From contig CAIOIC010000100.1 of the NCBI GenBank assembly GCA_903858275.1, positions 1 to 64,000 of the forward strand: a DNA stretch of 64,000 nucleotides. Direction: 5' to 3'. The notes under the pieces were generated by a model, which had not been told where the DNA came from, did not search any database, and was given only the letters and a program-made list of their open reading frames with translations. The translations under genes and the position numbers were made by a program. Each line of letters opens with the position of its first letter. Within the stretch, counting starts at the first letter, position 1. Shown here piece by piece: positions 46,173 through 64,000 of the stretch. Source of the DNA: an uncultured Verrucomicrobia subdivision 3 bacterium. GTDB lineage: Bacteria > Verrucomicrobiota > Verrucomicrobiia > Limisphaerales > UBA11358.

Positions 46173-46696
46173 GCTGGTTCCTCCGTTTTGGTCGGCCCGG
46201 CCGGGGTGGTTTTCTGCGCGCCCGCCGGAGCCACATCGTGATAGGCGGCCAAAGTCTTCAGCGTCTGGTCCAGGAAGGCGACGGCGCGCGTCATGTCGGT
46301 GGTCAGAAACCCGTGCAGCTGTTCCAGTTGTTTCAGCAAAGGCGTTGATCGGTTTTCCAGTTCCCGATCCCATTTTTTCAGGACCGTCATTTTGACTTCG
46401 ACGTCGCGGACCGACTGCTGTGTTCGCTGCACGGCCATGCGATGCAGCGCGATCGTTTCATGGAATTTGGAGAGCGTGGCGTTGAACAATTCCTGCTTGG
46501 CCTCCTCCAATTTGCGGGCGCGCCGGCGCAATTCCTGTTCCCAGAACATGCGCTTTTCATCCTGCAGCCAGGGCCGCATGCGCACCACCTCGTTGCTCGC
46601 TTCTTCAAGGACGTTTTTCGCTTGGGCCAGAAACACGATGAATTTCGCCCGGAACGACTCGATGGCTTCTACGGAAGTGACTTGGGCTTGGGCCAT
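46169..46696 (-). CDS. Coiled-coil protein of the WXG100/FtsK module
   Basis: A 175-residue, mostly helical protein (EAIESFRAKFIVFLAQAKNV; MFWEQELRRRARKLEEAKQE; VQRTQQSVRDVEVKMTVLKK) with a short Ala/Pro/Lys tail. No signal peptide or membrane span. It sits between the WXG100-like and the 70-residue genes with 2-bp and 4-bp junctions, so it is part of the same operon. It may be a chaperone or a long secreted helical hairpin. Confidence 0.75.
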   Translation of the reverse strand: MAQAQVTSVEAIESFRAKFIVFLAQAKNVLEEASNEVVRMRPWLQDEKRMFWEQELRRRARKLEEAKQELFNATLSKFHETIALHRMAVQRTQQSVRDVEVKMTVLKKWDRELENRSTPLLKQLEQLHGFLTTDMTRAVAFLDQTLKTLAAYHDVAPAGAQKTTPAGPTKTEEPA

Positions 46697-46698
46697 GG

Positions 46699-46971
46699 TC
46701 AGCGTTGGTTGAGATACTCCTCGATGCGCTGCGCCTTGCGCAAAAGATAAGGCGTGTGCTCCTTGGAAAGCTCGACGAATTTTTTGAGGGCTTTTATCGC
46801 CTGCTTGAACTCCTCGGAAAATTTCTCATGTTCCTGATCCGACCAGGTGTCACCGAGCGCCGCGAACCGGGCGTGCAGCAGGACCAGCCGGTTTTCGATG
46901 TCGCTGTTGAAGCGCTGCAGTTCTTCGGCGAACCGCCGCACTTTTTCCGGATCCATGATTGCCTGTGCCAT
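46699..46971 (-). CDS. WXG100-like (EsxA-type) protein
   Basis: A 90-residue, leaderless two-helix protein of the right size for WXG100. The turn carries LGDTWSDQEHEKFSEEF: W-S-D takes the WxG position and a conserved Phe follows at the usual spacing. WXG100 proteins dimerise as helical hairpins and are exported by EccC ATPases. It is first in the operon leading to the FtsK/EccC-like gene. The C-terminal YxxxD/E export signal is not obvious (YLLRKAQRIEEYLNQR). Confidence 0.8.
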   Translation of the reverse strand: MAQAIMDPEKVRRFAEELQRFNSDIENRLVLLHARFAALGDTWSDQEHEKFSEEFKQAIKALKKFVELSKEHTPYLLRKAQRIEEYLNQR

Positions 46972-47274
46972 GTTTTGCCTTGGTTAATGTTGGCGCACTA
47001 TCGCAAAACTTTTCCCCTTCCGCAAGGGAGGCGGCAAGCGAACTGGTTTTTTTGGATGTCTGATGTTCCCCGCCCGTGCCCACGCCATCATCAATCATCC
47101 ATTCTCGCCTTCCCCTCCATCCTCCACCCTCTGGCTCCCCGCTCCTCGCTCCATGCTGTTTTCAGGTCTCAAGTCTCGGCGTTTCAGCATTCCCCCTCAA
47201 AACCTCTAGTTGACAGCCATTACCCGTGTTGGCACGTTGACTTGGTAATAAAAATTGCTAAAAGCAATTCTCCC
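46972..47274. other. Intergenic region with a possible degenerate repeat copy
   Basis: About 300 bp with no convincing gene between the WXG100 operon and the cassette-like array. From roughly 47219 to 47274 the sequence (ttacccg ... taataaa ... aaaagcaattct) resembles a diverged copy of the array repeat, in the same orientation as the others. The 5' portion is C-rich low complexity. Confidence 0.45.
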
Positions 47275-47329
47275 TCACCCGCGCCGCGTCCAGTATATAA
47301 TCCCCCATGAAAAGCAATTTCCTGTCAGT
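47275..47329 (+). repeat. Array repeat copy 1
   Basis: First clear member of a ~55-bp direct repeat: it begins tcacccgcgc, has a gcgtccagta centre and atgaaaagcaatttcc near the right end. It is followed within about 12 bp by the broken end of a truncated gene. Confidence 0.93.
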
Positions 47330-47340
47330 TGAAGCTTTGG

Positions 47341-47463
47341 ACCGTGCAGTTCTGCGGCAATCTGCGTCCCTGGGACAAGGCCCGCCCGGCGGCGGAGGAC
47401 AAGTTCTTCAAGAACGCGATCGACAACTCCGGTGCCGACGCCTGCACCGGCCGCGTCAAGTAA
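47341..47463 (+). pseudogene. C-terminal gene remnant abutting repeat copy 1
   Basis: An open stretch of 40 codons ending in TAA (TVQFCGNLRPWD ... ADACTGRVK) with protein-like composition but no start codon. It begins directly after repeat copy 1. It looks like the 3' end of a gene whose 5' part was lost when the repeat junction formed. I do not recognise the parent family. Confidence 0.5.
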
Positions 47464-47506
47464 GTCCCGAAGCGGAAATCTTCGCAATAAGGAAGGAGTC
47501 GGCCCC

Positions 47507-48607
47507 ATGAATAGGCGCGAATTCGTAAAATCGGCGACGTTGTCGACCATGGCCGTCGGCCTGGGTGGCGTCGCGCTGGGAGTCGGCAAGGCATCTGTGT
47601 CCGCCGCCGCCCCCGAGGCCATCAAAGCGGTGTTGTTGCACCTCGGCCACAACATGTGGTGCGATTGGTTCCCACCGGACATCGACCTGTCCAAGTTCGA
47701 GAAGGGGTTGCCGGACACGACGCTCCGCTGCAAGGACGGCCTGTGGCGCAAAGTCACAGACCATGCCGCCGCGAAGGGGATGAACATGGTCGTTATCGAC
47801 CTCGGGGAGGGCGTCGTCTACCCCAGTCACTCCGAACTTGCCATCGCCGGGTCCTGGAGCGTGAACAAACTTCGCGCAGAGCTTGACCGGTTGCGGGGCA
47901 TGGGCCTTGAGCCAATCCCGAAGCTGAACTTCTCCACCACGCACAACGGGTGGCTGAAGCACTACCGCCGCATGCTTTCCACGCCCGTTTACTACAAAGT
48001 GTGCGAGGATGTGCTGCGCGACGCGTACGAGATTTTCGGTCACCCGCGGTTCATCCACATCGGGTGTGACGAAGAGACTGCCCGGCATCAGGACGAAAGC
48101 GGCGTATCCCATTATATCTCTGTCCGGCGCGGCGAGTTCTGGATGCACGATTTCGAGCACATCGTGCGGGCAGTGGAGGGACTCGGCGCCCGCCCGTGGG
48201 CGTGGAGCGATTACGGGTGGAGCCATCCCGAGTTCATGCAACGGTGCCCCAGGAGCGTCGTCCTTTCCAACTGGTATTATGACGAGAGCTACGGCGGTTT
48301 CGATCCGGCCGCGAACAAGACGGAAGACCATAAGCGCCTGATCAACTTCTGGGACCTTGAAAAGGCCGGTTACGACCAGGTCCCGTGCGGCACGAACTGG
48401 GTCGGTTGGAAACGCAAGCAGGTCAACGCCGGCGCGGAGGATGTGATCGGAAAGCTCGTCAAACTCGGCAGGCAGGTCGTGGCGCCTAAACACCTGTTGG
48501 GATTCCTGATGGCGCCTTGGGCCTCCACGGACGACGACGCGAACACCGCGTTCAACATCCGCGGCATCGACCTCTTCGCCGAGGCCCTGCGCCAGCCCCG
48601 CGGATAG
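47507..48607 (+). CDS. Tat-exported GH20-like TIM-barrel protein
   Basis: A 366-residue exported protein. The twin-arginine signal is NRREFVKSATLS with a hydrophobic stretch to ~residue 32. The barrel resembles GH20 hexosaminidases: GMNMVVIDLGEGVVYPSHSE, then the acid pair in HIGCDEETARHQ (~residue 185, compare GH20 HxGxDE), and RPWAWSDYGWSHPEFMQ. The substrate is unknown. A strong AAGGAAGGAG ribosome site precedes ATG 47507. First complete gene of the repeat-delimited array. Confidence 0.78.
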   Translation: MNRREFVKSATLSTMAVGLGGVALGVGKASVSAAAPEAIKAVLLHLGHNMWCDWFPPDIDLSKFEKGLPDTTLRCKDGLWRKVTDHAAAKGMNMVVIDLGEGVVYPSHSELAIAGSWSVNKLRAELDRLRGMGLEPIPKLNFSTTHNGWLKHYRRMLSTPVYYKVCEDVLRDAYEIFGHPRFIHIGCDEETARHQDESGVSHYISVRRGEFWMHDFEHIVRAVEGLGARPWAWSDYGWSHPEFMQRCPRSVVLSNWYYDESYGGFDPAANKTEDHKRLINFWDLEKAGYDQVPCGTNWVGWKRKQVNAGAEDVIGKLVKLGRQVVAPKHLLGFLMAPWASTDDDANTAFNIRGIDLFAEALRQPRG

Positions 48608-48724
48608 GACGAACACGCTGCGTTTTCAGGGAACGGTGCATAGACAAACCGGAGACGAGATGAAGAAATCTAGAGATTTATGTTCGCCGCTTAGTCTGCC
48701 AGCGATGTGAGAACACAATTGACC

Positions 48725-48779
48725 TTGCCCGCGCAGCGTCCAGTATTTGAGCCTGCATGAAAAGCAATTTCCTATCAGT
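48725..48779 (+). repeat. Array repeat copy 2
   Basis: Same repeat and orientation as copy 1; it ends 1 bp before ATG 48781 of the M55 gene. An ATG inside it (48757) is in frame with that gene. Confidence 0.93.
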
Positions 48780-48780
48780 A

Positions 48781-49608
48781 ATGAACACGCTGATGTCGAT
48801 GGGCGTCTGCTTCCTGGCCGCCACAGCCCAGGCCTATAAAGTGTATGTGTTCACTGATATGGAGGGCTGCAGCGGGGTGACCTGCAGCGAGCAGGTTTTC
48901 GGAGCCCGCGCGGAGGAGGGCAAACGTCTGATGGTGGAGGATATGAACGCCTGCGTGGCCGGCTGCTTTGCGGCCGGCGCCACCGAAGTCGTGGTGCGCG
49001 ACGGCCACAGCAGCGGGACGAACGTGGATCCAAAATTGTTGGACCCGCGCGCGAAGCTGATCCAGGGCGCGACGCCGGGGGTGCGCTGCAAAGATTTGGA
49101 CGGCTGCGAGGCGCTGATTCTTTTGGGTTACCATGCCATGGCGCTCACGACCAACGGCGTGCTGGCGCACTCGTTTTCGTCCGCGACGATCCAAGGGATG
49201 TGGTTGAACGGACGCGCGGTTGGGGAGATTGGCGTGGATATGGCCATCGCCGCAGAACATCGCGTGCCGGTGGTGATGGTTTCCGGCGACGACAAGACCG
49301 TGGCCGAGGCGAAGGCGTGGCTGCCGCAGGTTTACGTCAGCGGCACCAAGCAGGGAACCGGGTGGCAAAGCGCGGATTTGGTCCCGGTGGAACAGGCGCG
49401 AAAACTCATCCGGCAGACGACCGAAGCGGCACTCTTGCACCGCAAGGAGATTCCGCTGCTGAAAATCAGCTATCCGGCCACGCTGCGCCGGGACTACCTG
49501 CCGACAGGATCGCTCCGCACGCACAACCCCGCCTTCCAGCCAGTACCCAACCCGCGGCGGGTGGAGAAGACGGGGGACTCGGTCGAAAAACTGCTCTTGG
49601 GCAAGTGA
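48781..49608 (+). CDS. M55-family D-aminopeptidase (DppA-like), exported
   Basis: A 275-residue zinc peptidase. Metal and catalytic motifs match DppA: FTDMEGCSGV, VVRDGHSSGTN, LILLGYHAMA, LAHSFSSATIQG and GEIGVDMAIAAEH. DppA releases D-amino acids from peptides, for example peptidoglycan stem peptides. A short hydrophobic N-terminus (NTLMSMGVCFLAATAQA) suggests export. ATG 48781 is chosen; ATG 48757 inside the repeat would add MKSNFLSV. No ribosome-binding site is clear for either. Confidence 0.88.
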   Translation: MNTLMSMGVCFLAATAQAYKVYVFTDMEGCSGVTCSEQVFGARAEEGKRLMVEDMNACVAGCFAAGATEVVVRDGHSSGTNVDPKLLDPRAKLIQGATPGVRCKDLDGCEALILLGYHAMALTTNGVLAHSFSSATIQGMWLNGRAVGEIGVDMAIAAEHRVPVVMVSGDDKTVAEAKAWLPQVYVSGTKQGTGWQSADLVPVEQARKLIRQTTEAALLHRKEIPLLKISYPATLRRDYLPTGSLRTHNPAFQPVPNPRRVEKTGDSVEKLLLGK

Positions 49609-49625
49609 GCGGCGTATAACCCACG

Positions 49626-49841
49626 GATAGGAGTAGGGATGGCGGCGAACCGCCACCCTCCCTCCGAACCGGACTGGCGGGTTCCCCGCATCATATGTCA
49701 CGTTGTTACGGACGAGTCGTTCACCTCCGGCAGCTCCCCACGCCCTGTTGCCAGAACGCAGTAGCCTTCGGTCACAGGCGGGCAAACGTTCCGCCTGACG
49801 GGGACTTACACCCCGCCACGTAGTCGCCTTCACAGGCGCAC
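49626..49841 (-). mobile_element. Internally deleted group II intron remnant, no reverse transcriptase
   Basis: Read on the minus strand, it begins GTGCGCC, has the domain I-like GGGGTGTAAGTCCCCG, and ends with a domain V 3' strand (CCAGTCCGGTTCGG), a domain VI hairpin (GGTGGCGG TTCG CCGCCATCC) and the terminal CCCTACTCCTATC. The total is only ~216 bp. The 5' strand of domain V is missing, so domains I-V were fused by deletion and self-splicing is not expected. It lies 8 bp from repeat copy 3. Confidence 0.65.
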
Positions 49842-49849
49842 GAGGGTGT

Positions 49850-49904
49850 TCACCCGCGCCGCGTCCAGTAAATGAGCCCGGTGGAAAAGCGATTTCCTAT
49901 CAGT
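49850..49904 (+). repeat. Array repeat copy 3
   Basis: Same repeat; the right half has gtggaaaagcgatttcc in place of atgaaaagcaatttcc. It separates the group II intron remnant from the promoter of the next gene. Confidence 0.93.
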
Positions 49905-49942
49905 AATGCCGATTCCATTCGCGGAACGTTGAGCCAACCCAG

Positions 49943-49972
49943 TTGACAGTGCCCGTCCTCGTGGCGTAGAAT
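49943..49972 (+). promoter_or_regulatory. Candidate sigma-70 promoter of the clan GH-A gene
   Basis: A perfect TTGACA and a TAGAAT separated by 18 bp, 57 bp before ATG 50030 and outside the repeat. This argues that the repeat itself is not the promoter. Confidence 0.6.
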
Positions 49973-50029
49973 CCGTTTACCCCACTAACGCGATATTAAC
50001 CGCGATCCTCATACTCTGAAAGTGCTTCA

Positions 50030-52705
50030 ATGAAATATATCATTGGTCTGCTCGCCATGCTGTTTATGCTGGAGCTTGCTCTCGGTCACGCTGCCGAGAC
50101 CCTCCTGGAAGTCGATTTTTCAAAGCAGATGGTTGATCGGCATTTCCTGCAGAAAGGAAGCTTCGACGGCCCGCTTCCGGAAGGCTGCAATGCGAATTAC
50201 CTCGGGTGGACCGCCTCTGTCGTCAAAGCCAAAGTGCTTTCAGAAAACGGCCGGAAATTCTGGCGCCTGACTGTTGAAAAGGTGTCGCCGGAAATCCAGT
50301 TCAGTTGGGGGCCGCGATCGCTGAAAGCGCCGGGCCTCTACCGGTTGACCGTCCGATGCCGGTTGGCTTCGGATATCAGCTTCGCTATGCGCCAGTTCCC
50401 GGCGCCTTATAAAACCTTCTGGAGCGTCGGGATTTCGGCCGCCAGCTCCGGATGGGTGGACCGCACCTATTTGATTGATCTGGGCCAAAGCAGCACCGTG
50501 CCCATCGGGCTCTTTCTGTATCCGGGGCTGGGTGTTTTTGATCTGGCGGCGCTAAAGCTCGAAAGTATTTCGCTTGAGGAATTCTCCTCCTCAGTCAAGC
50601 GTCCGGCCAGGGAATGTCAAAACTTTTTCCGCAATACTCGCTTCCCGCTCGGGCTGCAAGCCGGCTGGAATATCGGTCGTGATTTTGCCTGCGGAGCTGT
50701 GGAATCCGACCCGGCCAACGCGGGTCCTTCCGGGCAGCCTTCCCTGAAGATCCAGTTCGACAAGCCAAGTGCGCTCTATTCGGAACCCTTCCAGACCTCC
50801 GACCCGGCGCAACGCAATTTTGTCTCCTTTGCTTACAAGGGCACCGGCAAATGGAAGGTGGCCGTCATTCACACCACCGACTGGCTGTCCGCCGGGGGGC
50901 GCGAAATATCCGCGTCGGACCAATGGCAGACCGCCGCTATTCCGCTGCGATTCGACAAACGCGCGGCAACCGCCCGGGCTTTTACGCTGCGGTTGACGGG
51001 CGAGGGGGTGTTGCACCTAGATTCGCTTCAGGCTTGGGTTGGCGCACCGGACCGGACCTTTAAACCGCAGGCCGCCGCCGAGGTCGCCCTCGCCCTCCCG
51101 AAAGGCAAAGCCTCGGATCAGCGCATTCAGTTTATTGATGAAACGCCTGCCATTGAATATTGCGCCATGGGAGACCTTGCCGGCGCGACGCTAAAATTCA
51201 AAGCCTTCAACCTTTACGGTGAGGAAAAGAGCTTGCCGCCGGTGAAATTCGGCCGCGAACTGGCACCCGCCAACCGGCGCGGCACGGTGCGTTACGATGT
51301 GTTCCCCGGCAAACAGCTGGGCCAAATCCGGGTCGAATCCTGGATTGAGCGGGCTGGGCAGGTTGTGTCACCCTGCAATGAAATCCTGGTGACGCGTCTT
51401 AACCGTCCGGTTTATCTGGCCAAAGACGCGCCGGATTCCCCCTTCGGATGCCACTTCAACGCCTCGCCATTGACGATCCGGCTGATGAAGATCGCCGGCG
51501 TCAACTGGGCCCGCTTCCACGACGCCTCCACCGAACTCACCGGCTGGTTCCATCTGGAATCCGAGAAAGGCAAATGGCAATTTCATGACGAGGAAATCCG
51601 GCGGTATCGCGAACAGCATATCTCGATCTTTGGCGGTCTCCAGACTGCGCCGCTCTGGGCCTCGATGTATAAGACCAGCGGCAAGAAAGAGGTCAATGGC
51701 TATTTCGATCGCTACTTTGAACCGCTGGATCTGGCTGAATGGTCCAACTACGTATACACCGTCACCGCCCGCTATCAAGGGGTCATCAGTGACTATTTCA
51801 TCTGGAACGAACCGTGGGGAGCCGGCTTCTGGCATTCCGGATACGATGCCGCCAAGAAGGAATATGTGGCATCGCCGACCGCAGCTCTGGATTATGCGAA
51901 GCTCTCGATTGCGGCGTATCAGGCCGCCAAAGCGGGGAATCCCGCCGCCAAAATTTCCGGCTTCAACAGCCTGGGCGGTGACACCGGGAAAAAATGGACC
52001 CAGGGCGTCTATGACGGCGGCGCCTATCCCTTTTGCGACTTAATTGATTACCACTTTTACACGCCCCGGAATCAGGCGCAGTCCGGCGATCAGGCCCAGG
52101 ACGAATTTGCGGCTGCAACCGGCTTCATTAAACAAAAATCCGGGGTTCCTCTTAAGCCGGTTTATATGAGTGAAGGCCAGGGGAATGCCACCGGTTCGTC
52201 CGGCAGTTCAGGTCCAGGCTTTTACCGGCATGCGCTGACTTGGGATGACGATTCGCAGCCTTTGATCGCCGGGGACAAGACCTGCCGTTTTGTTGTGGCG
52301 AACCTGGCGGCCGGGGCCGCCAAGGTTTTCCTGTATTCAGCGCATAGCTACCAGACGCTTGCGCTTCAGGCGAATTTTAATGCGCTGCTCTCCCCCGATG
52401 GATATCCGAATGCCGAACTTGCCGCCTATTCGCAAATGGCGGGCAAGCTGGAGCGGACGCAATTTGTCCGGAAAATCCAGCTCAACGCTGAGGTCGACGC
52501 CTACCTCTTCGCAAAAAAAGCCGGCGGAACGGTTGCGGCAATCTCCGGTTTTCGCAAGGCTGTTCTGGCCCTTCCGAAAAACAACGCCTTCAGGCTTGCC
52601 GATTTGTTTGGCAATCCTTCCGACGGAACCTACCGGGGGACGATGCTGTATGCGGACTCTGCCCTTGCACCCGAAAAGCTGGCGGAAGCCCTGCAGTTGA
52701 AATAA
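50030..52705 (+). CDS. Exported clan GH-A glycoside hydrolase (GH39/GH5-like)
   Basis: An 891-residue secreted enzyme (signal peptide IIGLLAMLFMLELALGHA). The N-terminal ~450 residues are two beta-sandwich, carbohydrate-binding-like domains (VDFSKQMVDRHFLQ; PSLKIQFDKPSALYSEPF). The catalytic TIM barrel starts near residue 465 (DSPFGCHFNASPLTIRLMKI) with acid/base Glu in FIWNEPWGAG (~593) and likely nucleophile Glu in VYMSEGQG (~714). This retaining NEP signature fits GH39 or GH5-type enzymes. The substrate is not readable; mannan or xylan would fit the neighbourhood. Confidence 0.8.
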   Translation: MKYIIGLLAMLFMLELALGHAAETLLEVDFSKQMVDRHFLQKGSFDGPLPEGCNANYLGWTASVVKAKVLSENGRKFWRLTVEKVSPEIQFSWGPRSLKAPGLYRLTVRCRLASDISFAMRQFPAPYKTFWSVGISAASSGWVDRTYLIDLGQSSTVPIGLFLYPGLGVFDLAALKLESISLEEFSSSVKRPARECQNFFRNTRFPLGLQAGWNIGRDFACGAVESDPANAGPSGQPSLKIQFDKPSALYSEPFQTSDPAQRNFVSFAYKGTGKWKVAVIHTTDWLSAGGREISASDQWQTAAIPLRFDKRAATARAFTLRLTGEGVLHLDSLQAWVGAPDRTFKPQAAAEVALALPKGKASDQRIQFIDETPAIEYCAMGDLAGATLKFKAFNLYGEEKSLPPVKFGRELAPANRRGTVRYDVFPGKQLGQIRVESWIERAGQVVSPCNEILVTRLNRPVYLAKDAPDSPFGCHFNASPLTIRLMKIAGVNWARFHDASTELTGWFHLESEKGKWQFHDEEIRRYREQHISIFGGLQTAPLWASMYKTSGKKEVNGYFDRYFEPLDLAEWSNYVYTVTARYQGVISDYFIWNEPWGAGFWHSGYDAAKKEYVASPTAALDYAKLSIAAYQAAKAGNPAAKISGFNSLGGDTGKKWTQGVYDGGAYPFCDLIDYHFYTPRNQAQSGDQAQDEFAAATGFIKQKSGVPLKPVYMSEGQGNATGSSGSSGPGFYRHALTWDDDSQPLIAGDKTCRFVVANLAAGAAKVFLYSAHSYQTLALQANFNALLSPDGYPNAELAAYSQMAGKLERTQFVRKIQLNAEVDAYLFAKKAGGTVAAISGFRKAVLALPKNNAFRLADLFGNPSDGTYRGTMLYADSALAPEKLAEALQLK

Positions 52706-52816
52706 CCTTCAATGCCAGAGCGGAATTGGAGTGGATCCAATGTGGTGCTCTATGGCGTGATTTGTGTTACCCGGCCTACATCCCGAATGTCGGTTAAAAT
52801 TCTTTGGGAATTAAAA

Positions 52817-52870
52817 TCACCCGCGCAACTTCTAGTAATAAGCCCGCTTGATAAGCGATTTCCCGTCCGT
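52817..52870 (+). repeat. Array repeat copy 4 (most diverged)
   Basis: It shares the tcacccgcgca start and the aagcgatttcc right part but differs in the centre (acttctagtaata). It lies between the convergent 3' ends of the GH-A and GH26 genes, its right edge touching the GH26 stop codon. Confidence 0.85.
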
Positions 52871-53896
52871 TCACCTTCCTGCCTTGCCCCATTCCGCCGG
52901 CAGGTTCTCGCGGTTCGCGATGGCCGGATCGCTGAGCATTTCCTTCGCGTTCGGATTCTGGGCGAGACTCCACTTGGCGTTCCAGCATTTGAAGAAGCAG
53001 GTCTTGGGGAAATCCTTGCGGATGCCGTCGAGGAAGCGGCGGTAGTCGAAGTCACCGGGCGGGTTCTGCGGGCCGTGCGGGCCGTATTCGGTGAACCCAA
53101 AAGGCTTGGGCAGGGCGGCGACTTCGGCGTAGCCCTTGATGTGCTGCGCGTCCACGAAGTCGGTGTAAGCGTCGAGGCCCACGAGATCGACGTAACGGTC
53201 GCCAGCGTAGTATTGGGCGGTTTTCGGGCCGTGGTTCGGCGCATAGACCCAGAGGAGATTGTCGAGGCCCTTGGTTTTCGTGAAGTAGTCGAACATGTGC
53301 CGCCAGACTTTGATGAAAGTGTCCGGGTCTTTCGCGCCCCACCAGAACCAGCCGCCGTTCATCTCGTGGAAGGGCCGCCAGAGGACGACCACACCGGCGT
53401 CCTTGAGTTCCTGCAAGCCGCCGGCCAGGAGATCAAGCTCGCGCATCCAGCGTTGGTGGGTGTCGGTGCCGGGTTGGAGGAGCGTGGCGAGATCGACGCC
53501 TTTGTCGCGCAGACCGCCGCCCTTGGGGTTGGCGGGATTGTAGAGGTGCGCGCTGACGGTGACGAGGCCGCCCTGTTTCGCGTATTCCATGCAGGCGGCG
53601 TTGGGAATTTTGAAGGTGAGGCTGCCTTTGCCGAAATCCGCATAGTCCACGCCGATGATGGCGGGCCAGTGGCCGGTCTTCTCGTGTATCTGCTCCATCA
53701 ACTGGAGTTTGGCGCCATTGCCGAATTCGGTGAACTGGCCGGAGACAATCCGTTTGTCCGCGCAGGCGGGGAGGCTCTGGAAGTATTTGAGGACGGCGCG
53801 GGTCTTGGGGCTGGCGTTGGGGTTCGCGGAATCGGTGGGAGAAGCGGCCAGGGCGGCCCAGGCCGACAGGAGCAGGAATGAGAGTGCGGTTTTCAC
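52871..53896 (-). CDS. Exported GH26 beta-mannanase-like enzyme
   Basis: A 341-residue enzyme from GTG 53896 (signal peptide KTALSFLLLSAWAALA); ATG 53926 inside repeat copy 5 is an alternative. GH26 features: GHWPAIIGVDYADFG, VVVLWRPFHEMNGGWFWWG with the acid/base Glu, and the nucleophile Glu in PFGFTEYGPHG. The family hydrolyses beta-1,4-mannan or related glucans. It is oriented against its neighbours; its stop abuts repeat copy 4 and its start abuts copy 5, so the whole unit lies exactly between two repeats. Confidence 0.88.
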   Translation of the reverse strand: MKTALSFLLLSAWAALAASPTDSANPNASPKTRAVLKYFQSLPACADKRIVSGQFTEFGNGAKLQLMEQIHEKTGHWPAIIGVDYADFGKGSLTFKIPNAACMEYAKQGGLVTVSAHLYNPANPKGGGLRDKGVDLATLLQPGTDTHQRWMRELDLLAGGLQELKDAGVVVLWRPFHEMNGGWFWWGAKDPDTFIKVWRHMFDYFTKTKGLDNLLWVYAPNHGPKTAQYYAGDRYVDLVGLDAYTDFVDAQHIKGYAEVAALPKPFGFTEYGPHGPQNPPGDFDYRRFLDGIRKDFPKTCFFKCWNAKWSLAQNPNAKEMLSDPAIANRENLPAEWGKAGR

Positions 53897-53948
53897 TCGC
53901 GCAGCGTCCAGTATATGAGCCCGCATAAAAAGCAATTTCCAATTAGTT
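53893..53948 (+). repeat. Array repeat copy 5
   Basis: Same repeat, lying between the divergent starts of the GH26 gene (minus) and the following 925-residue protein gene (plus). The left edge tcac supplies the GTG of the minus-strand gene. Confidence 0.93.
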
Positions 53949-53981
53949 ATCGGCGGCAAAATGGCTTATAGATGAAAACTT

Positions 53982-56759
53982 ATGAGACCGAAACTCTTGT
54001 TCTATTTGATGGGGATGTGTGTTGTTGCGGTCGATTGGACAAACGGCGGTGCCTTTGCCGCCGCCGCCAAGGTTTCGATGCACACCATCAACTCTACTTG
54101 GCCGGCGCCGCCGGGCGAGGAGAGTTGGGCGTTTGTAGAGGATTTGAAGAAGCCACTGCCGTTCGTGCTATTCTGGAAGGATGGAAGCTCGCCACAACCG
54201 GGACAGATCGACCTGCGCGCCGGCCTAACCGTGAAAAGGGGTTTCCCTGATGAGCAGGGTGTTCTCAAAACGGCCTATGCCGACCTCGACGGCTTTATCG
54301 CTTTTGCAAAGCTCGCCAAAGAAGGGGGCCTTCCCGTTATGGCGGAGAAGGCGGCGACAGACGTCCCCGAGGCTTACTCGATCGAGGTCTCTCCAAAGGG
54401 CATCCGGCTGTTGGCCAACGACACCGAGGGCCTCCGGCGCGCAATCTTTCACCTCGAAGAGCTGATTGCCGCTGCGGACGGCCCTTTTCTCAGCCCCGGG
54501 GTCATCACAAAAAAACCTTGGCTGAAGAACCGCATCACGCGCTGTTTCTTCGGGCCGATCAAGCGCCCGCCGCTGAACCGCGACGAGCTGATGGACGACG
54601 TGGATTACTACCCCGATGCCTATCTTAACCGCCTGGCTCACGAAGGCGTGAACGGCCTGTGGCTGAGCGTCCAGTGGAAGGACATCACGAAGACCTCCTT
54701 CCGCGAGCCGAGCCCCGACCTGGAGCGGCGGCTCACGAAACTGCGGCAGACCGTGGAGAAGTGCGCCCGGTACGGAATCAAGCTGTGGCTCTACTCGAAC
54801 GAGCCCGAGGGCTTCTACTCCGCCGACGATCCTATGCTCAAGGCGTATCCCGAGCTGGCAGGGGCGGGCAGGCCTTCCCGCCGTTACATCTGTCCGAATT
54901 CCGAAGCCGGCCAGAAATTCATCTATGAGTCGACCCGCTGGATTACCTCGCATGTTCCGGGATTGGGTGGACTGATCAATATCTCGCTGGGCGAGCACGG
55001 CTCCTCCTGTCTCGATTCGGTGGGCGTCGAGGCGGGCCGGCGCCCAGTTTGCCCGCGCTGCTCACTGGTGCCCAACTGGCAGACCCTGGCGTCGGGACAG
55101 GGCGCGTGGGCGCGTGGCATCAAGGAAGGCGATCCGAAGGCCGAGTACATTTGCTGGCTCTACATGCCGTCGTGGAAGCCGCTCGCGCCGTGGGTGTACG
55201 AACTGGGCGACCACATGCCTAAGGATGTCACGCTGCAGATCAATTTCGAGTCCGGCGCGGTCAAGTACCAGCTGGACCGGCCGCGCGTGGGCGGCGACTA
55301 CTGGCTGTCGTTCATCGGTCCGTCCGAGCGGTTCGCCCGAATCGCCGGGCAGGCGGCGGCAAACCGGACGCCGATGTCCGCGAAGCTTCAGGTGGGCTGC
55401 TCGCACGAATCGGCGACCATCCCGTTCATGCCCGTGCCTTCGCTCCTATACCGCAAATATAGAGAGATGCCCGCATTGAACGTCACCACCGTGATGCAAT
55501 GCTGGTATTTCGGGAATTATCCCGGCGTGATGAATCGCGCCGCCGGGCGGCTGGCCTTCGAGGATTTTTCGGGGACGGAAGACGACTTCCTGCGGACACT
55601 GGCGCGGCCGGAATGGGGCGGCGATGCCGACGCTGTCGTGCGGGCATGGAACCATTTCGCGGAAGGGTTCCAACATTATCCGCTCGCGACTCGCTTTCAA
55701 TATTGGGGGCCGATGCATGCCGCACCGGTCTGGCCGCTTCACCTTAAGCCCGCGCTCAAGCCGTTGCAACCCACATGGCTGGTCGGAGGTCCTGCCGGTG
55801 ATGCCATCGGCGAGGCGTTGGATAATCATTCGTTGGCCGAAGCGGTCGTTTTGTCGCGACAGATGTCGGAGGAATGGGACAAGGGTGTTGTCATCATGAA
55901 GTCGCTTGAGCCCAAGTTCAGGGAGAACCACGAACGCCTGCTCGACATCGGGCTGACGGAGGCGATCGGCATTCAATTTGCGAGCGCGCACAACATCCTG
56001 AACTTTTACTTGATGCGCAGCCGGCTGTTCGACCTGCCGCCGCCGGAGGCTTTGCGGCAACTGTCGGCTATGGAAACCATCGTCCGTCAGGAGATTCGGA
56101 ACAGTGAACGGCTGGCTGTGCTCTGTGCTGCGGATTCACGCTTGGGATTCCATTCCGAAGCCGAGCGGCACCAATACTGCGTTACGCGATTGCAGTGGCG
56201 TATCGCGGTGCTCAACGATTTGTTGGCGACAGAGTTTGCCGAATACCAAACTGCGTTTGCCGCCAGGAAGCAGGTGTCGCGATTCGCCGAGGGCCGGGCG
56301 GTTTATGCCTGCGGATCAGGCTGGACCGATTGCCAGACCTACCGATGGCAGGCGCAGCCTGGCAATGACTGCTTGGAGCTGAGCCTTGAAATGAAAAAAC
56401 AAAAAACAACGGGATCCTTTGCCATGTATCTCTCTGATCCGTATGTGACCGTGCCTGGCTGGGAGATTCGCTGCTCGACGGCGGGGACGGTGACGGATTC
56501 CCGCGAGGTTGGTTTGCGCGCCGAATCCTACAAAACGCCGCAGGGGTGTTATGGCGTGAAATTGCACATCCCATCGGAGGGGCTGCAACTTCTGGACCCG
56601 ACAACCCGCGCTTACGCTTTTAACATCTTCAACAGCAGTATGGCTGCGGACAACTGGCCCACCGACATGGACGAATCGGACCTCGGCACCTATCGGCTGG
56701 CCATAGGCCTCTTCAAGCCGCAGAAGATGGGATACCTTTGCATCTCCCCAACCAAGTGA
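53982..56759 (+). CDS. Exported glycoside hydrolase-like protein (GH20/GH67-like)
   Basis: A 925-residue secreted protein (leader RPKLLFYLMGMCVVAV). The first ~170 residues form an alpha/beta domain ending YSIEVSPKGIRLLANDTEGLRRAIFHLEE, which is the domain II pattern of GH20 and GH67 enzymes that precedes the barrel. The barrel then starts with FGPIKRPPLNRDELMDDVDYYP and includes GVNGLWLSVQWKD, YGIKLWLYSNEPEGFY and GGLINISLGEHGSS. A C-terminal beta domain (~residue 780 on) closes it. No HxGxDE pair is visible, so the catalytic residues differ. Substrate unknown. Confidence 0.72.
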   Translation: MRPKLLFYLMGMCVVAVDWTNGGAFAAAAKVSMHTINSTWPAPPGEESWAFVEDLKKPLPFVLFWKDGSSPQPGQIDLRAGLTVKRGFPDEQGVLKTAYADLDGFIAFAKLAKEGGLPVMAEKAATDVPEAYSIEVSPKGIRLLANDTEGLRRAIFHLEELIAAADGPFLSPGVITKKPWLKNRITRCFFGPIKRPPLNRDELMDDVDYYPDAYLNRLAHEGVNGLWLSVQWKDITKTSFREPSPDLERRLTKLRQTVEKCARYGIKLWLYSNEPEGFYSADDPMLKAYPELAGAGRPSRRYICPNSEAGQKFIYESTRWITSHVPGLGGLINISLGEHGSSCLDSVGVEAGRRPVCPRCSLVPNWQTLASGQGAWARGIKEGDPKAEYICWLYMPSWKPLAPWVYELGDHMPKDVTLQINFESGAVKYQLDRPRVGGDYWLSFIGPSERFARIAGQAAANRTPMSAKLQVGCSHESATIPFMPVPSLLYRKYREMPALNVTTVMQCWYFGNYPGVMNRAAGRLAFEDFSGTEDDFLRTLARPEWGGDADAVVRAWNHFAEGFQHYPLATRFQYWGPMHAAPVWPLHLKPALKPLQPTWLVGGPAGDAIGEALDNHSLAEAVVLSRQMSEEWDKGVVIMKSLEPKFRENHERLLDIGLTEAIGIQFASAHNILNFYLMRSRLFDLPPPEALRQLSAMETIVRQEIRNSERLAVLCAADSRLGFHSEAERHQYCVTRLQWRIAVLNDLLATEFAEYQTAFAARKQVSRFAEGRAVYACGSGWTDCQTYRWQAQPGNDCLELSLEMKKQKTTGSFAMYLSDPYVTVPGWEIRCSTAGTVTDSREVGLRAESYKTPQGCYGVKLHIPSEGLQLLDPTTRAYAFNIFNSSMAADNWPTDMDESDLGTYRLAIGLFKPQKMGYLCISPTK

Positions 56760-56809
56760 AGACGAAACGCGAGAGATATGCATGAACCTGGAAAAGACCG
56801 CCAATGCCG

Positions 56810-56864
56810 TCACCCGCGCCGCGTCCAGTAAATGAGCCCGCATGAAAAGCAATTCCATTTTAGT
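56810..56864 (+). repeat. Array repeat copy 6
   Basis: Close to consensus except the right end (aattccattttagt). It lies 50 bp after the preceding gene and 45 bp before the next start. Confidence 0.93.
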
Positions 56865-56909
56865 AAAGACTTCATCCTTCCAACCACCAGCGAATGCTGA
56901 AGAAACCGA

Positions 56910-57878
56910 ATGAACAATCACCTTACCCGCCGTGATTTTCTAAAAACCTCCGCTGCCGCCAGCCTCGGCCTCTGGGCCGCCGGAAGTGTTGATGCGCGCG
57001 CCGCGTTCAAAACCAAGCTCCCCAAGGCGATGATCCGCAAGAAGCCGACGGAGAGGGAATTTCAGGAACTGAAGGACGCCGGCTTTGAGGGCGTCGAGGG
57101 CGGCATCGTCACCGTGGAAGAAGCCGCCGAGTGCCGGAAGATCGCCGACAAGCTCGGCATGCGCATTCATTCGGTGCTGCGTGGCTGGGCGGAGTTCAAC
57201 AGTGAAGACCCCGCGAAAGTGGAAAGCACACTCAAGGTGACCGAGGACGCGTTGCGCGCGGCCCACGCGTTTGGCGCCGACACCATCCTGCTGGTGCCAT
57301 GCCGCATCGGCGGCAATGGCATGGCCATCCCGGAAGCGTGGGAGTTTGAGATCGAATTCGACGAGAAAACCAGCCACGTCAGGAAGGTCGCCGCTGGCGA
57401 TAACGAAAAGTACAGGGATTACATCGCCGCGCAGAACCGGGCCACCGACACTTCGCGCGCCGCGGTCAAGAAACTCATCCCGCTGGCTAGGGAACTTAAG
57501 GTCGTCATCGCGCTCGAAAACGTCTGGAACAATCTCTGGGTGAAACCGGCACTCTTCCAGAACTTCGTTGCCTCGTTCCATGACGAATGGGTGAAAGCTT
57601 ACTTCGACATCGGCAACCACGTGAAATACCAGAAGCCGGAGGACTGGATCCACTCCCTCGGCCCGCTCATCGCAAAGTGCCACATCAAGGACTTCCTGCT
57701 CAACCCCGACGGCCACGGCGGCAAGTTCGTCCATCCGCGTGACGGCAGCATCAACTGGCCCGCCGTGCACCAGGCTCTCGACGATGTGGGCTACAACGGC
57801 TGGCTTTCAATCGAAGATGGCGGCCTGCCACTGGAAGAGTTCAGCAAACGCCTGGATCTGATCATAGCCGGGAAGTAG
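56910..57878 (+). CDS. Tat-exported sugar phosphate isomerase/epimerase-like protein
   Basis: A 322-residue protein. The Tat signal is LTRRDFLKTSAAASLGLWAAG. The rest is a xylose-isomerase-like TIM barrel (AP endonuclease family 2 fold): GFEGVEGGIVTVEEAAECRK, ADTILLVPCRIGG, VVIALENVWNN, WVKAYFDIGNHVKY and CHIKDFLLN hold the conserved Glu, Asp and His metal ligands, ending YNGWLSIEDGG. It probably isomerises or epimerises a sugar released by neighbouring hydrolases. Confidence 0.88.
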   Translation: MNNHLTRRDFLKTSAAASLGLWAAGSVDARAAFKTKLPKAMIRKKPTEREFQELKDAGFEGVEGGIVTVEEAAECRKIADKLGMRIHSVLRGWAEFNSEDPAKVESTLKVTEDALRAAHAFGADTILLVPCRIGGNGMAIPEAWEFEIEFDEKTSHVRKVAAGDNEKYRDYIAAQNRATDTSRAAVKKLIPLARELKVVIALENVWNNLWVKPALFQNFVASFHDEWVKAYFDIGNHVKYQKPEDWIHSLGPLIAKCHIKDFLLNPDGHGGKFVHPRDGSINWPAVHQALDDVGYNGWLSIEDGGLPLEEFSKRLDLIIAGK

Positions 57879-57969
57879 CGGTCAACTGCGAGGCGGGCGG
57901 TCACGATGAACAGGGGTTTCCTGACGCCGAATTTGGCGGTCGGCCGCAGGTCGTGGCGAGCGTGAAGGG

Positions 57970-60111
57970 TTACGGCGCACGTGCGGCGGCGCCCAAGGCG
58001 GCGACACATTTTTCCAGGCAATCGGCGAGCGCATCGCGGTAGTCGAGCAAGGGCAACGGATCGAAATTCAAACGCAGCTTTTCGGCTTCAAATCCCGAAT
58101 TGACGAGCGCTACCGCGCGGTCGCCGAGGCGCAGAGAAAAATCATCCACGAAAACTTTTTGCAGCGGTGCGTCCGGACCGGAGGCGGGTGTGGTCGTCTG
58201 GGCCTGGATGCCGAGGTGGAGGGTGCGGGCAGCGGGGGGCGCGGGGGGCAGGGTGATTTTTAGTTCCACAAACTTCGGCATTGAACCAGTGACAGGGGCA
58301 GACTCGACGCGGTTGAGGAGGGCGCCATCGGCGCCTCGATAAGTCGCGATCAGGCGGGCCTTGCCGGCGAGATCCGCAGTCTTGATCCAAACGGAAGCCG
58401 AGCCGGATTCTCCGGCGGTGATGGGGCGGCTTTGGGTGACGGTGACGCCGGCGGAATTGGGGAGAATGCGGAGGGCGCGTTTACCGCTGCAAATGGCTTT
58501 GGGGTGCATCGTCGCGCTGCAGGCCGGTTCGTCACTGGCAGTTACCGTCCAGCCGGTGCGCCAGCCGTCACCGATTGAGGCCACTGAGTCCGGCACGGTG
58601 AGGAGGGTGCGGGCGCGAGTGGCCAGGGCCTGCCAGCCGGAGGGATGCCGAGTCTCGAGTTGGGTGGCTGCGAGCCGCAACCGGACGAGATACTCGTAGT
58701 CCTCAATGCCGTCGCGCACACGTTTCACCCGGGTGGACGGAAACAAATTTCCCGACCCGTCGGGGTAAAAAAGATTTCCGCCGCCGTTGGCATCGATCCA
58801 TTTGCCGGAGAAAATGTTGGTGTAGCCGGGGCGCCAGTCCGCCTCCGGCTGGCGGCGATCTTTCACGGCCCGGTTGCCCGGCCATTCGCGCTCGACGGCC
58901 CAATAGAGGTGGCCGCGCACCCCGGCCTTCCAGTCGGAAAGGAAGAAGCCGCGGTGCACGACGGGCGGATAGTCGAGGCGGAAGTCGGGCTCGTTTTCGA
59001 GGTCATCGTTGCCGACGGAATACCACCAGTGGCCTTTGCGCGCGGTCATCGCCGGCACGAACAGCGCGGTGGGCACGACGAAGAGGTCGACGACGTCGGC
59101 GAGCCGTTGGTCCGGCTGGCTGGTGTTGATGCGGATGATCTCCGGATGGCGGGCGTGGAAGCGCGCGTAGGCTTTGCGCATCGCCGGCATGCGCTCGGGG
59201 TGATTCACGGTCACTTCGTCGTAGCCGAAGAAAAACGTGCGATCGAGGGCGCCGACCTTGCGCAGCAGGGCGATCTTCGGCTCGAGCGCATCGAGGGACT
59301 GCTCGATCCGCGCATCGGTTACACCTTCCACGTGGAGCAGGATGACGTTGAGGCCGCGGTTGAGGCATTGGCGCAGACGCGCCTCGTCGTCAAACAATTC
59401 GTCGCCGCCGTCCCACATCGGAACCGGGCCCAAGCGGTGCTCGAGCATGGCGTCCTGCGCGGCGTGGACCTCGGGGCGCGTCAGGGGGCGGCCGTAGTAG
59501 GCTTCCATCCAGCTCGGGGTGAAGGCGAAGGCGAGCTGCAGTGAGGGGATCGCCGGCAGCGAAAAATTGCGGACGCGCAGACGAATCGGGAGGGTCTGAC
59601 TTCCGCCAGAGACAGTGATGGTGACGGCCCCGACGCGTTCGCCTGCGACAGAGTTCGGCGGCACGTTGAGGTCGATCCAGTAGGGGCGGAATCCACCGGA
59701 GGCGATCGCTTCGCCGCCGGGAGGGCGGAGGAGATCGAAAACGTGTCCCGCCTTGGCGCCACTTGAGCGGCTCGGGGTCGTTACGTGGATGGCGCTGGCC
59801 GCATAAATCTTCGGCTCAACGTCGCCGAGGCCGGAGACGGAGATGCGGATGTCGCGCAGGGCCTCGGCTGTCCGCGGGGTGAGGATGAGCTGAAAGCTCT
59901 CGGTTTCGCCGCGGGCCGCGGAGAGGCGGATGGAGTCTTGGCCGGGAGCTGGAGGATTCTCGGTCCGGAAGGTTTCGAGCGAGGAGTGCGCTGAGGCGGT
60001 AAAGGCAGGTGATTGCGCGCGGGCGTCGCCGAGGCCCAGGCACGGTAAAGCGAAGGCGGCGACAAACAGGGCGGCGGTGGCGGGGCGATTTTTACGGCGC
60101 GGGGTTTTCAT
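57970..60111 (-). CDS. Exported DUF4091 / GH123-like protein
   Basis: A 713-residue protein from ATG 60111 (KTPRRKNRPATAALFVAAF leader). An N-terminal beta domain (QLILTPRTAEALRDIRISVSG) precedes a barrel with FGYDEVTVNHPERMPAM, whose Asp-Glu pair sits where GH123 has its catalytic residues, and the DUF4091-type WWYSVGNDDLENEPDFRLDYPP. The late segment YPDGSGNLFPSTRVKRVRDGIEDYEYLVRL is a DUF4091 hallmark. The C-terminal ~130 residues are a beta-sandwich. ATG 60156 at the repeat edge is an alternative start. Confidence 0.8.
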   Translation of the reverse strand: MKTPRRKNRPATAALFVAAFALPCLGLGDARAQSPAFTASAHSSLETFRTENPPAPGQDSIRLSAARGETESFQLILTPRTAEALRDIRISVSGLGDVEPKIYAASAIHVTTPSRSSGAKAGHVFDLLRPPGGEAIASGGFRPYWIDLNVPPNSVAGERVGAVTITVSGGSQTLPIRLRVRNFSLPAIPSLQLAFAFTPSWMEAYYGRPLTRPEVHAAQDAMLEHRLGPVPMWDGGDELFDDEARLRQCLNRGLNVILLHVEGVTDARIEQSLDALEPKIALLRKVGALDRTFFFGYDEVTVNHPERMPAMRKAYARFHARHPEIIRINTSQPDQRLADVVDLFVVPTALFVPAMTARKGHWWYSVGNDDLENEPDFRLDYPPVVHRGFFLSDWKAGVRGHLYWAVEREWPGNRAVKDRRQPEADWRPGYTNIFSGKWIDANGGGNLFYPDGSGNLFPSTRVKRVRDGIEDYEYLVRLRLAATQLETRHPSGWQALATRARTLLTVPDSVASIGDGWRTGWTVTASDEPACSATMHPKAICSGKRALRILPNSAGVTVTQSRPITAGESGSASVWIKTADLAGKARLIATYRGADGALLNRVESAPVTGSMPKFVELKITLPPAPPAARTLHLGIQAQTTTPASGPDAPLQKVFVDDFSLRLGDRAVALVNSGFEAEKLRLNFDPLPLLDYRDALADCLEKCVAALGAAARAP

Positions 60112-60155
60112 GGCGGTGGCGCTGATTGCGCGTCGCCGGATAAAATCCAAAAACA

Positions 60156-60209
60156 TCACCCGCGCAGCGTCCGGTAAATGAGCCCGCATGAAAAGCAATT
60201 TCCTGTCAG
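60156..60209 (+). repeat. Array repeat copy 7
   Basis: Same repeat and orientation, between the divergent starts of the DUF4091 gene (minus) and the next plus-strand gene. I found no further copy to the right. Confidence 0.93.
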
Positions 60210-60275
60210 CCCCGAAATATTCGACTGGAGTTCTTTCAGCTTTTTCGGTGGTCAGCGGTTGATTGAAGTCGCATC

Positions 60276-61940
60276 ATGGCATCCATGAGAAAGATCTGCC
60301 GTCTCTTGTTGCTTTGCACAGTGTGCGCCGGATATGCAGCGTCAGCCAATAATTACACCAACCGCTGGGTCTGGATTTTTGGCTGGAATCTGAACACGGA
60401 TGGCGACGCGGCAGAAATCACCAAGGTGCTGGAATCGGGTGCCGCGCACGGCATCAATGGCGCGGTGATCTCCAGCGGCATGGATTCGCTGTCGGCCACG
60501 ACGGCGGCCTTTTCCCGCCGGCTTGACGAGGTGCAGCGCGCTTGTGAGCGCCTCAACATCGAATTGATTCCGGCCGGCTTCGCCGTCGGTTATGGCAGCA
60601 CGGTGTTGCGCCATAATAAAAATCTTGCTGAGGGACTGCCGGTCACAGATGCGCCGTTTCTGGTTCAGGGCCGGTCGGCTCAACTCGTCCCGGATGCCTC
60701 GGCCCGCATCATCAATGGCGGCTTCGAGGAATTTCAGGGGAAACGTTTCAATAAATTCAGTTTTCACGACCAGCCGGGGGTTATCAGCTTTGTCGATACG
60801 GTGGTGAAACACGGCGGCAAGGCGGCGCTGCGGATGGAGAACTTCACCGCCAAACCAAACGGTCTTGGGCGCGTCATGCAGGAAGTCCGCGTCCAGCCCC
60901 ACCGCTGCTACCGCGTCAGCGTATGGGTGAAGACCGAGAATCTGCAGCCCGCCGACGCCTTCGTGATTTCCGCGCTCAACCAGGATCGCTCCATCGCCTC
61001 GCTGAAACCCTCGCTGCCGCCGACCAGTGACTGGAAAAAAATCCAGTTTCTTTTCAACAGCGCCGCCTTTGACACGGTTCGCCTTTACGCCGGCATCTGG
61101 GGCGGCAAATCCGGAAAGTTCTGGCTCGACGACTGGGCGCTGGAAGAAGTGGGACCGATTAACGTCCTGCGCCGGCCCGGAACCCCGGTCACCGTCAAGA
61201 GCGCGGATGGGGCGACGACCTACGCGGAGGGCCGCGACTATGAGCCGCTCATCGATCCGGCCTACTCGCCATACAACATCGCCCGCTCCGCGCCGCCGCT
61301 GAAGCTGGCGCCGGGCAGTCGCATTCAAGATGGCGCGCGGCTGCGGGTGAGCTGGTATCATTCGCTGGCGATCAGCAAGGGGCAAATCAGCGTCTGCATG
61401 GCCGAGCCGGAATTGTATGCGATCTTTGATGCCGAGGCCAAACTGCTGGCGGAGCGGCTGCACCCGAAACATGTCCTGCTGAACATGGACGAAATCCGCA
61501 TGGGCGGCACCTGCGCGGCCTGCCGCAGCCGCAACATGGGCGAGCTGTTGGGGGAATGCATCACCAAACAGACGCAAATTCTCCGCAAATATATGCCCGG
61601 CGTTGAAGTGCTTATCTGGAGCGACATGCTCGACCCGAACCAGAATGCCCATGGCAACTACTACCTCGTTGAGGGCGACTTCACCGGCTCATGGAAACAC
61701 ATCCCGAAAGACCTGACCATTGCCGTCTGGGGTGGCGAGCCGAGGGCTGAGAGCCTGAAGTTTTTCGCGGATGAAGGTTTCGCCATGCTGGTCGCCTGCT
61801 ATTACGATGCCGACGACCTCAAAACCGTCAGCGGCTGGCTCAAGCTCGCGGAGCAGACGCCCAAGGTGCGCGGATTGATGTATACGCCTTGGCGCAAGAA
61901 ATACGGACTCCTGCCTGCGTTCGGCGACCTGCTGAAATGA
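60276..61940 (+). CDS. Exported GH20-like barrel protein with an inserted carbohydrate-binding domain
   Basis: A 554-residue secreted protein (leader KICRLLLLCTVCAGYAASA). The barrel begins NRWVWIFGWNLNTDGDAAEI, is interrupted at about residue 145 by a jelly-roll-like module (IINGGFEEFQGKRFNKFSF to DDWALEEVGP, ~145 residues) and resumes with RLRVSWYHSLAISKGQ. VLLNMDEIRMGGTCAAC holds the likely acidic pair, comparable with the DE of the GH20-like protein at 47.5 kb. Activity and substrate unknown; GH20-like is the closest fold I can suggest. Confidence 0.7.
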   Translation: MASMRKICRLLLLCTVCAGYAASANNYTNRWVWIFGWNLNTDGDAAEITKVLESGAAHGINGAVISSGMDSLSATTAAFSRRLDEVQRACERLNIELIPAGFAVGYGSTVLRHNKNLAEGLPVTDAPFLVQGRSAQLVPDASARIINGGFEEFQGKRFNKFSFHDQPGVISFVDTVVKHGGKAALRMENFTAKPNGLGRVMQEVRVQPHRCYRVSVWVKTENLQPADAFVISALNQDRSIASLKPSLPPTSDWKKIQFLFNSAAFDTVRLYAGIWGGKSGKFWLDDWALEEVGPINVLRRPGTPVTVKSADGATTYAEGRDYEPLIDPAYSPYNIARSAPPLKLAPGSRIQDGARLRVSWYHSLAISKGQISVCMAEPELYAIFDAEAKLLAERLHPKHVLLNMDEIRMGGTCAACRSRNMGELLGECITKQTQILRKYMPGVEVLIWSDMLDPNQNAHGNYYLVEGDFTGSWKHIPKDLTIAVWGGEPRAESLKFFADEGFAMLVACYYDADDLKTVSGWLKLAEQTPKVRGLMYTPWRKKYGLLPAFGDLLK

Positions 61941-63877: not shown

Positions 63878-64000
63878 TCGGGCATTTACGCAAAATAGTG
63901 CGGGCTGGTAAATAAGTTTATGCCGGTATTTCTGTCGCGGTTCAGTAGACGGCTAATTAGTGCTAATCTTTGGCGCGATTGTTAAGGACACTCCTCGGCC

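Follow-up and report, generated by a model that had tools for sequence, protein, structure and literature searches.

Same-direction arrays of a 55-bp IS91-type right end around single genes in Limisphaerales

We analyzed a 64,000-nucleotide (nt) stretch of contig CAIOIC010000100.1 (the window) from an uncultured Verrucomicrobia subdivision 3 bacterium, in which seven copies of a short repeat, all in the same direction, are separated by mostly single genes. This repeat is the right end (oriIS), namely, the last ∼55 bp, of an IS91-family (Y2/HUH) rolling-circle element, an identification that draws on many independent copies and is our firmest result. We consider it probable that one-ended rolling-circle transposition spread such solo right ends and that they bound captured genes, present singly or as operons, many of which encode secreted polysaccharide-degrading enzymes. 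The mechanism as such is known, and what is new here are the solo 55-bp oriIS units and their many-copy, same-direction arrays around single metabolic genes. Below, G000 refers to the genome that contains the window, and the other G numbers refer to its relatives.

The identity of the repeat became clear from assembled elements in related genomes. At least 12 IS91-type elements of relatives end with the repeat ∼200 to 330 bp past the stop codon of their transposase, and in nearly every case the sequence after the stop runs in the order ...AAAACCAATTCTCCC-TCACCCGCGCAGCG-variable middle-AAAAGCAATTTCCTATCAGT (or a shorter variant) and then passes into unrelated DNA. The elements with an assembled right end (L198 to L206, L208, L210, L212, and L213) come from many families of the order, where related transposases were found in 32 of 320 genomes. 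The N-terminal half of the transposase shows 32% identity over 98% to annotated IS91-like/ISCR1 transposases. Moreover, in G043, which belongs to another family, the C terminus of a Y2_Tnp protein (PF04986) is encoded at most a few hundred base pairs upstream of leader-type copies of the repeat, and tblastn detected the same transposase remnant before copies in G015 and G002. Given that the ends of these elements carry the same sequence after the transposase stop in many independent copies, the repeat is an IS91-type oriIS and neither an integron-type site nor the short recombination site that the first-pass annotation had proposed. For the opposite end of the element, a comparison with the TCACCC edge of the repeat revealed no homology upstream in two G283 copies. 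A gene divergent to the transposase, which by eye resembles a helix-turn-helix (HTH)/WYL-type regulator, is common to the elements in L198 and L203.

The repeat is a single continuous sequence of ∼55 bp (consensus TCACCCGCGCAGCGTCCAGTATATGAGCCCGCATGAAAAGCAATTTCCTATCAGT). The conserved blocks noticed at first are all present and in the same order, but they form one unit with sharp outer edges rather than a set of separate blocks. Among 126 anchored copies, 102 start exactly at T[CT]ACCC, while upstream element DNA such as AAAACCAATTCTCCC is kept in the other 24, one of which (window copy 2) is doubtful. At the left edge of the 102 copies, conservation falls from 0.88 bit at the first T to 0.12 bit one base outward and then to near zero; at the right edge (122 copies), it drops from 1.26 to 0.35 and ∼0.05 bit, reaching the background level after CAGT. 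The base context is alike on both sides (CAATTCTCCC/TCAC and CAATTTCCTA/TCAG, with the slash marking the edge). As read from the flanks, the sequence beside the right end is TCAGT in 59 and TCAAT in 20 of the 122 copies, and the left edge is T[CT]AC. By analogy, the 55-bp unit may be a right-end fragment that stopped at TCAC, with TCAGT/TCAAT as the adjoining target. In Pseudomonas syringae, one-ended transposition of IS801 begins at the right end and terminates at target-like tetranucleotides, which in 26% of events yields right-end miniatures of 229, 360, or 679 nt and occasionally carries upstream DNA along (PMC3189936). The arrays described here share with IS801/IS91 the rolling-circle family, the fixed right end, and the transposase-free right-end fragments, and they may also share a left end set by a target-like tetranucleotide and the potential to move upstream DNA (PMC3189936). 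They differ in that the IS801 fragments of 229 to 679 nt lie at scattered sites, whereas the unit found here is far shorter (55 bp) and its many copies form unidirectional rows in which almost all intervals contain a gene.

Under the explanation that we favor, a Y2/HUH transposase would nick at the right edge of the repeat, between CTA and TCAGT, and copy away toward the left side of the repeat. Copying would sometimes end at the near, target-like TCAC, depositing only the 55-bp end, and would sometimes read through the neighboring DNA to another target-like site, carrying a gene along. Since every right end would keep a TCAGT-like target alongside, successive insertions would line up in one orientation and form an array, whose content could then be shaped by selection on the secreted polysaccharide-degrading genes and by recombination between repeats. 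Only tentatively would we go further and suggest that the solo 55-bp oriIS serves as both a start and a stop signal with which an IS91-type transposase acting in trans lifts genes or operons between arrays of unidirectional repeats in Limisphaerales, as a rolling-circle counterpart of integrons that spreads a shared pool of secreted polysaccharide-degrading enzymes.

To describe the distribution of the repeat, we searched its own genome and those of relatives, reading 129 copies overall. A profile built from the seven window copies is circular with respect to those copies, and in the window it returned nothing else below an E value of 0.2; whole-genome scans, however, added ∼16 further copies in G000, bringing the total to ∼23 on eight contigs, and a control in which the pattern was read backwards gave 1 match in the genome versus 17 for the true pattern. 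Apart from the seven copies in the window, C33 has a row of three, C129 has another row of three and two weaker copies in the opposite direction, C80 and C136 carry a pair each, C18 has two that lie far apart, and C57 and C71 have one each. A model based on sequence alone detected the repeat in 16 of the 59 genomes searched (G000 included), with most members of the same genus having none, and the numbers were uneven (40 in G016, 13 in G015, 11 in G002, 10 in G018, and 8 in G004). In G043, the repeat occurs 15 times in a diverged form that keeps both ends but has another middle. Among named records, the pattern matched metagenome-assembled genomes of Limisphaerales/Verrucomicrobia subdivision 3, plus one labeled Verrucomicrobiales and one labeled Phycisphaerae; the latter contig (L163) has a matching right end, which points to either transfer between phyla or a misbinned contig. 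In viral contigs and plasmids, the repeat was not found with the pattern or sequence used. Many copies in G000, G002, G004, G015, G016, and G043 lie within 1 to 2 kb of contig ends, and the true arrays may thus be longer. An IS630-type transposase gene, split in two frames, adjoins the first copy of the C33 array (L018:12042-12891).

Where copies are close, they agree in direction: 60 of the 63 pairs of neighbors less than 8 kb apart on the same contig are oriented alike, and all three exceptions include a weak match. A replication-strand bias is unlikely to be behind this, since distant copies are opposite (47 kb apart on G000:C18 and 15 kb apart on G016:C22) while close ones agree, although long-range pairs are few. 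In G018, all 10 copies are confined to a single 27.5-kb run of a 3.6-Mb genome. These patterns bear on an alternative explanation, according to which the bare 55-bp end hops independently into intergenic DNA and never carries genes, with the arrays being accessory regions that tolerate insertions. In its favor, the majority of copies consist of the bare 55-bp unit, the genes between them face both ways, homologous genes occur in relatives without repeats, and the repeats around a shared cassette (discussed below) are not visibly coinherited with its gene. Independent insertion does not, however, account for the common orientation of close neighbors, for the confinement seen in G018, or for intervals that mostly hold one gene, often filling them; nor would it produce the breaks of homology at repeats described below. 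On balance, we regard it as rather unlikely.

The orientation of the genes themselves is less constrained. Across 59 inter-repeat intervals, the main open reading frame (ORF) has the same direction as the repeat in 39 and the opposite direction in 20 (∼2:1), as counted by a length rule that scored the interval after window copy 2 on the wrong strand (the real gene there is a plus-strand M55 peptidase). Most intervals contain one gene that fills them, and some an operon, such as a three-gene operon with an apparent sigma factor on G016:C3. One could also take the repeat for regulatory DNA that the genes of a polysaccharide regulon have in common, acting as a promoter, leader, or terminator, given its position at gene boundaries, the start codons that it contributes in frame with several downstream genes, and the similar functions nearby. 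We nevertheless deem this very improbable and rejected a promoter or regulator: about a third of the genes run against the repeat, one copy sits between two convergent gene ends, the conservation from edge to edge is that of a transposable element end, and most genomes of the genus lack the repeat.

The comparison of the same locus in a relative shows that the window array is accessory DNA. In G016, both flanks are kept in the same order on one contig (C11), with ∼0.85 kb of unrelated DNA between them instead of the 15.6-kb array of G000, which is absent there. The left flank (44447-47118) matches at 91% and the right flank (62768-64000 in the window, inside a GH127 gene, the match running on to 67024) at 87%. 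Because the GH127 gene at the G016 junction is truncated, this junction may not represent the ancestral state. Gene 8, which follows the last repeat (match at 60243-61938), has a 91% identical counterpart elsewhere in G016, on C20, where there are no repeats. Colinearity of the two genomes at G000:C71 extends as far as the right edge of the repeat, and the DNA to its left is unrelated, as would be expected if DNA ending in the right end had inserted there. For the single copy analyzed on C18, we found no orthologous locus for an empty-site comparison. More generally, we counted the ends of alignments between different genomes, with the repeats masked and a minimum alignment length of 300 bp. 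A repeat lies within 60 bp of 20 of these 110 ends, compared to 2.6 expected and a maximum of 10 in 2,000 simulations, although the ends are partly redundant and 4 of the 20 come from shared element leaders, which makes the count supportive rather than a formal test. In outline, the gene-cassette array proposed at first holds up: the repeats face one way with usually one gene per interval, the genes are oriented independently of them, relatives carry similar arrays with other genes, a close relative lacks the array at the syntenic locus, and homology breaks at repeat edges.

The further idea that a gene and its repeat move as one unit fared worse. The heparinase II/III cassette on G000:C136 recurs on G016:C32, with 91% identity between the repeats and unrelated flanks. 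Its gene is 91.6% identical (84.8% at third codon positions), while the flanking repeats are only 73% and 76% identical, against a mean of 76% for random pairs from the two genomes. As the repeats of this one shared cassette are no more alike than random pairs, no joint travel of gene and repeat is visible, and coinheritance is unsupported there. In addition, a cassette gene of G016 and its homologue in G015 have opposite orientations with respect to the repeats around them. The left repeat of the C136/C32 cassette looks like a mosaic, in which the 22 bases on the gene side are nearly identical and share rare variants and the outer half differs. This fits a crossover inside the repeat, as expected if homologous recombination among preexisting solo repeats shuffles the genes and a transposase mattered only for the original spread of the repeats. 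The failure to detect a transposase today is also in line with such shuffling. Yet 55 bp at an average identity of 76 to 81% is short and diverged for RecA-type exchange, and neither the first formation of an array nor the TCAGT beside the right ends is explained in this way. We consider this explanation unlikely.

Together with the dissimilar repeats of the C136/C32 cassette and the redundancy among alignment ends, a number of further observations weigh against capture by one-ended transposition. First, neither a PF04986 nor a tblastn match to a Y2 transposase was found in G000 (a draft assembly, 94% complete), and a complete one was likewise not found in the other array-rich genomes of the genus, which are also drafts. 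Since the enzyme went undetected in these array-bearing members, the arrays could be relics or could be moved by a transposase missing from the draft assemblies. Second, oriIS ends are usually described with hairpins, and the 55-bp unit has only a short GCG/CGC pairing, folds no better than shuffled sequences, and shows little covariation. Third, the TCAGT/TCAAT target was inferred from the flanks without a clean empty-site sequence. Finally, all traces are comparative, with no excision, circle, or insertion event seen, and any movement as cassettes to this day is hypothetical.

The layout recalls integrons, and an integron-type cassette array without a nearby integrase was considered. Indeed, genuine IntI integrases above the TIGR02249 cutoff exist in relatives (G030:C31:8842-9777, G030:C32:163-1407, and G016:C49:1127-2050), on contigs other than those of the arrays read. 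However, G000 has no IntI above this cutoff, fold z-scores of −0.55 to 0.08 (both strands, three lineages) give no strong attC-like fold, the consensus on inspection lacks the paired RYYYAAC/GTTRRRY ends (R′/R″ boxes), and the repeat is an IS91-type element end. Fold, sequence, and the missing IntI linkage together rule out membership in this class, leaving it next to no probability. With regard to the genome-encoded recombinase that the first-pass annotation suggested looking for, G000 yielded neither an IntI above the cutoff nor a Y2 transposase; a tyrosine recombinase (Phage_integrase; E = 8e-17; L076:3138-4454) was seen in a single case, ∼2 kb from a leader-type copy on G016:C15. Two other candidates were discarded as well. 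A miniature inverted-repeat transposable element would have terminal inverted repeats, and the TCACCC and TATCAGT edges are not inverted copies of each other. As for a structured RNA, Rfam gave one subthreshold chance match away from the repeats, and the fold of the consensus is weak.

Many of the cargo genes scanned encode predicted secreted carbohydrate enzymes or binding proteins. The window contributes glycoside hydrolase (GH) family GH26, a weak GH123, CBM4_9, and M55 proteins; elsewhere in G000 we found heparinase II/III, a BNR-repeat protein, and a feruloyl-esterase-like hydrolase; G018 carries GH29, GH31, GH116, GH2, GH120, and DUF2961; and other arrays contain GH28, GH78, DUF4861, and pectate-lyase-like proteins. 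Some cargo falls outside sugar degradation, such as a fatty-acid desaturase/Rieske protein and an ankyrin-repeat protein, and a good share has no Pfam match. The host genomes may be rich in such enzymes anyway. If our interpretation is correct, the arrays would offer uncultured Verrucomicrobiota one route to reshuffle polysaccharide-degrading enzymes outside classical gene clusters.

IS91 and ISCR elements are known chiefly for mobilizing antibiotic-resistance genes. The arrays resemble ISCR elements with resistance genes in the related transposase (32% to the ISCR1 type), the oriIS end, and the proposed mobilization of neighboring genes, whereas ISCR arrays hold whole elements with their transposase and here only the last 55 bp are present, with a cargo made up largely of predicted secreted polysaccharide-degrading enzymes. 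With integron cassette arrays and clusters of attC sites lacking integron integrases (CALINs), they share the row of mostly single genes between one short same-direction repeat, but the site is a different one, there is no IntI link and no attC fold, genes lie in both directions, and the intervals measure 1 to 4 kb. Helitron gene capture likewise involves an HUH transposase and read-through past a terminator that takes flanking DNA (PMC4778049), although Helitrons are eukaryotic and much longer and make single captures rather than arrays. Repetitive extragenic palindromic (REP) sequences are also short, nonautonomous repeats tied to an HUH transposase family through TnpA-REP (PMC8266576), but they are palindromic, belong to a different HUH family, and form no gene arrays. 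In the open-access literature, we found no paper joining IS91, Verrucomicrobia, and glycoside hydrolases. The evidence for gene capture by IS91/ISCR has been termed circumstantial (PMC4778049). Natural arrays that combine more than 100 right ends, each sharply bounded on either side, with cargo genes between them would open one-ended rolling-circle transposition to genome comparison.

In the window, all seven copies reported in the first-pass annotation were recovered by the profile on the plus strand (E values of 2e-16 to 4e-21), and their spacing of 1.1 to 3.3 kb and the genes facing both ways between them were correctly described. Each of the first five intervals contains a single gene; in the sixth there are two, which are convergent. 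Copy 1 (47275-47329) is leader type and is preceded by an element remnant (47131-47274, plus strand, recognized by homology to DNA before other copies) with ...AAAAGCAATTCTCCC ahead of the repeat. It is followed by gene 1 (47507-48607, plus), with a twin-arginine translocation (Tat)-type signal by eye and no Pfam match. Copy 2 (48725-48779) precedes gene 2 (48781-49608, plus), a predicted D-aminopeptidase (Peptidase_M55; E = 3e-64), and copy 3 (49850-49904) precedes gene 3 (50030-52705, plus), which encodes a large protein with a signal-like N terminus and no Pfam match. Copy 4 (52817-52870) is the most divergent and one base shorter than the others. Between it and copy 5 (53893-53947) lies gene 4 (52871-53926, minus), which belongs to glycoside hydrolase family 26 (E = 2e-60), runs opposite to the repeats, and has an unsettled start codon. 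Gene 5 (53982-56759, plus) is another large protein with a signal-like N terminus and no Pfam match. Beyond copy 6 (56810-56864) are gene 6 (56910-57878, plus), a sugar isomerase-like TIM barrel (AP_endonuc_2) with a Tat-signal match just under the cutoff, and gene 7 (57970-60198, minus), with a weak GH123-like match (E = 3e-4, under the cutoff), likewise opposite to the repeats and with an unsettled start codon. The last repeat, copy 7 (60156-60210), is followed by gene 8 (60276-61940, plus), a protein with a carbohydrate-binding domain (CBM_4_9).

The leader at 47131-47274 has homologues (85 to 86%) upstream of two further copies of G000, located on C80, and it also matches the DNA that precedes copies in G015, G016, and G002; some of these copies adjoin transposase remnants. 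Outward promoters have been reported in the oriIS end of ISCR1. Positions 47190-47275 and the aligned leaders have TTGACA...TTGGCACG in common upstream of the right end, a possible outward promoter. Within the repeat, an ATG (ATGAAAAGCAATTTCCTATCAGTA, translated as MKSNFLSV) is in frame with the start of the downstream gene in several cassettes, suggesting a possible translational fusion, where one in three would be expected by chance. In copy 2 it lies at window position 48757 and leads into gene 2; the other loci are L018:11894 (minus), L019:8767, L024:8272 (minus), L066:2755, and L064:4379 (minus). The reverse reading of the repeat, MRAHILDAARV, shares its frame with some of the genes that run the opposite way. 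Finally, a stretch at L058:12259-12355, unrelated to the repeat, matches dozens of places in every relative at 80 to 90%, and the ORF at L058:11683-12369 starts with a prepilin-type N terminus.

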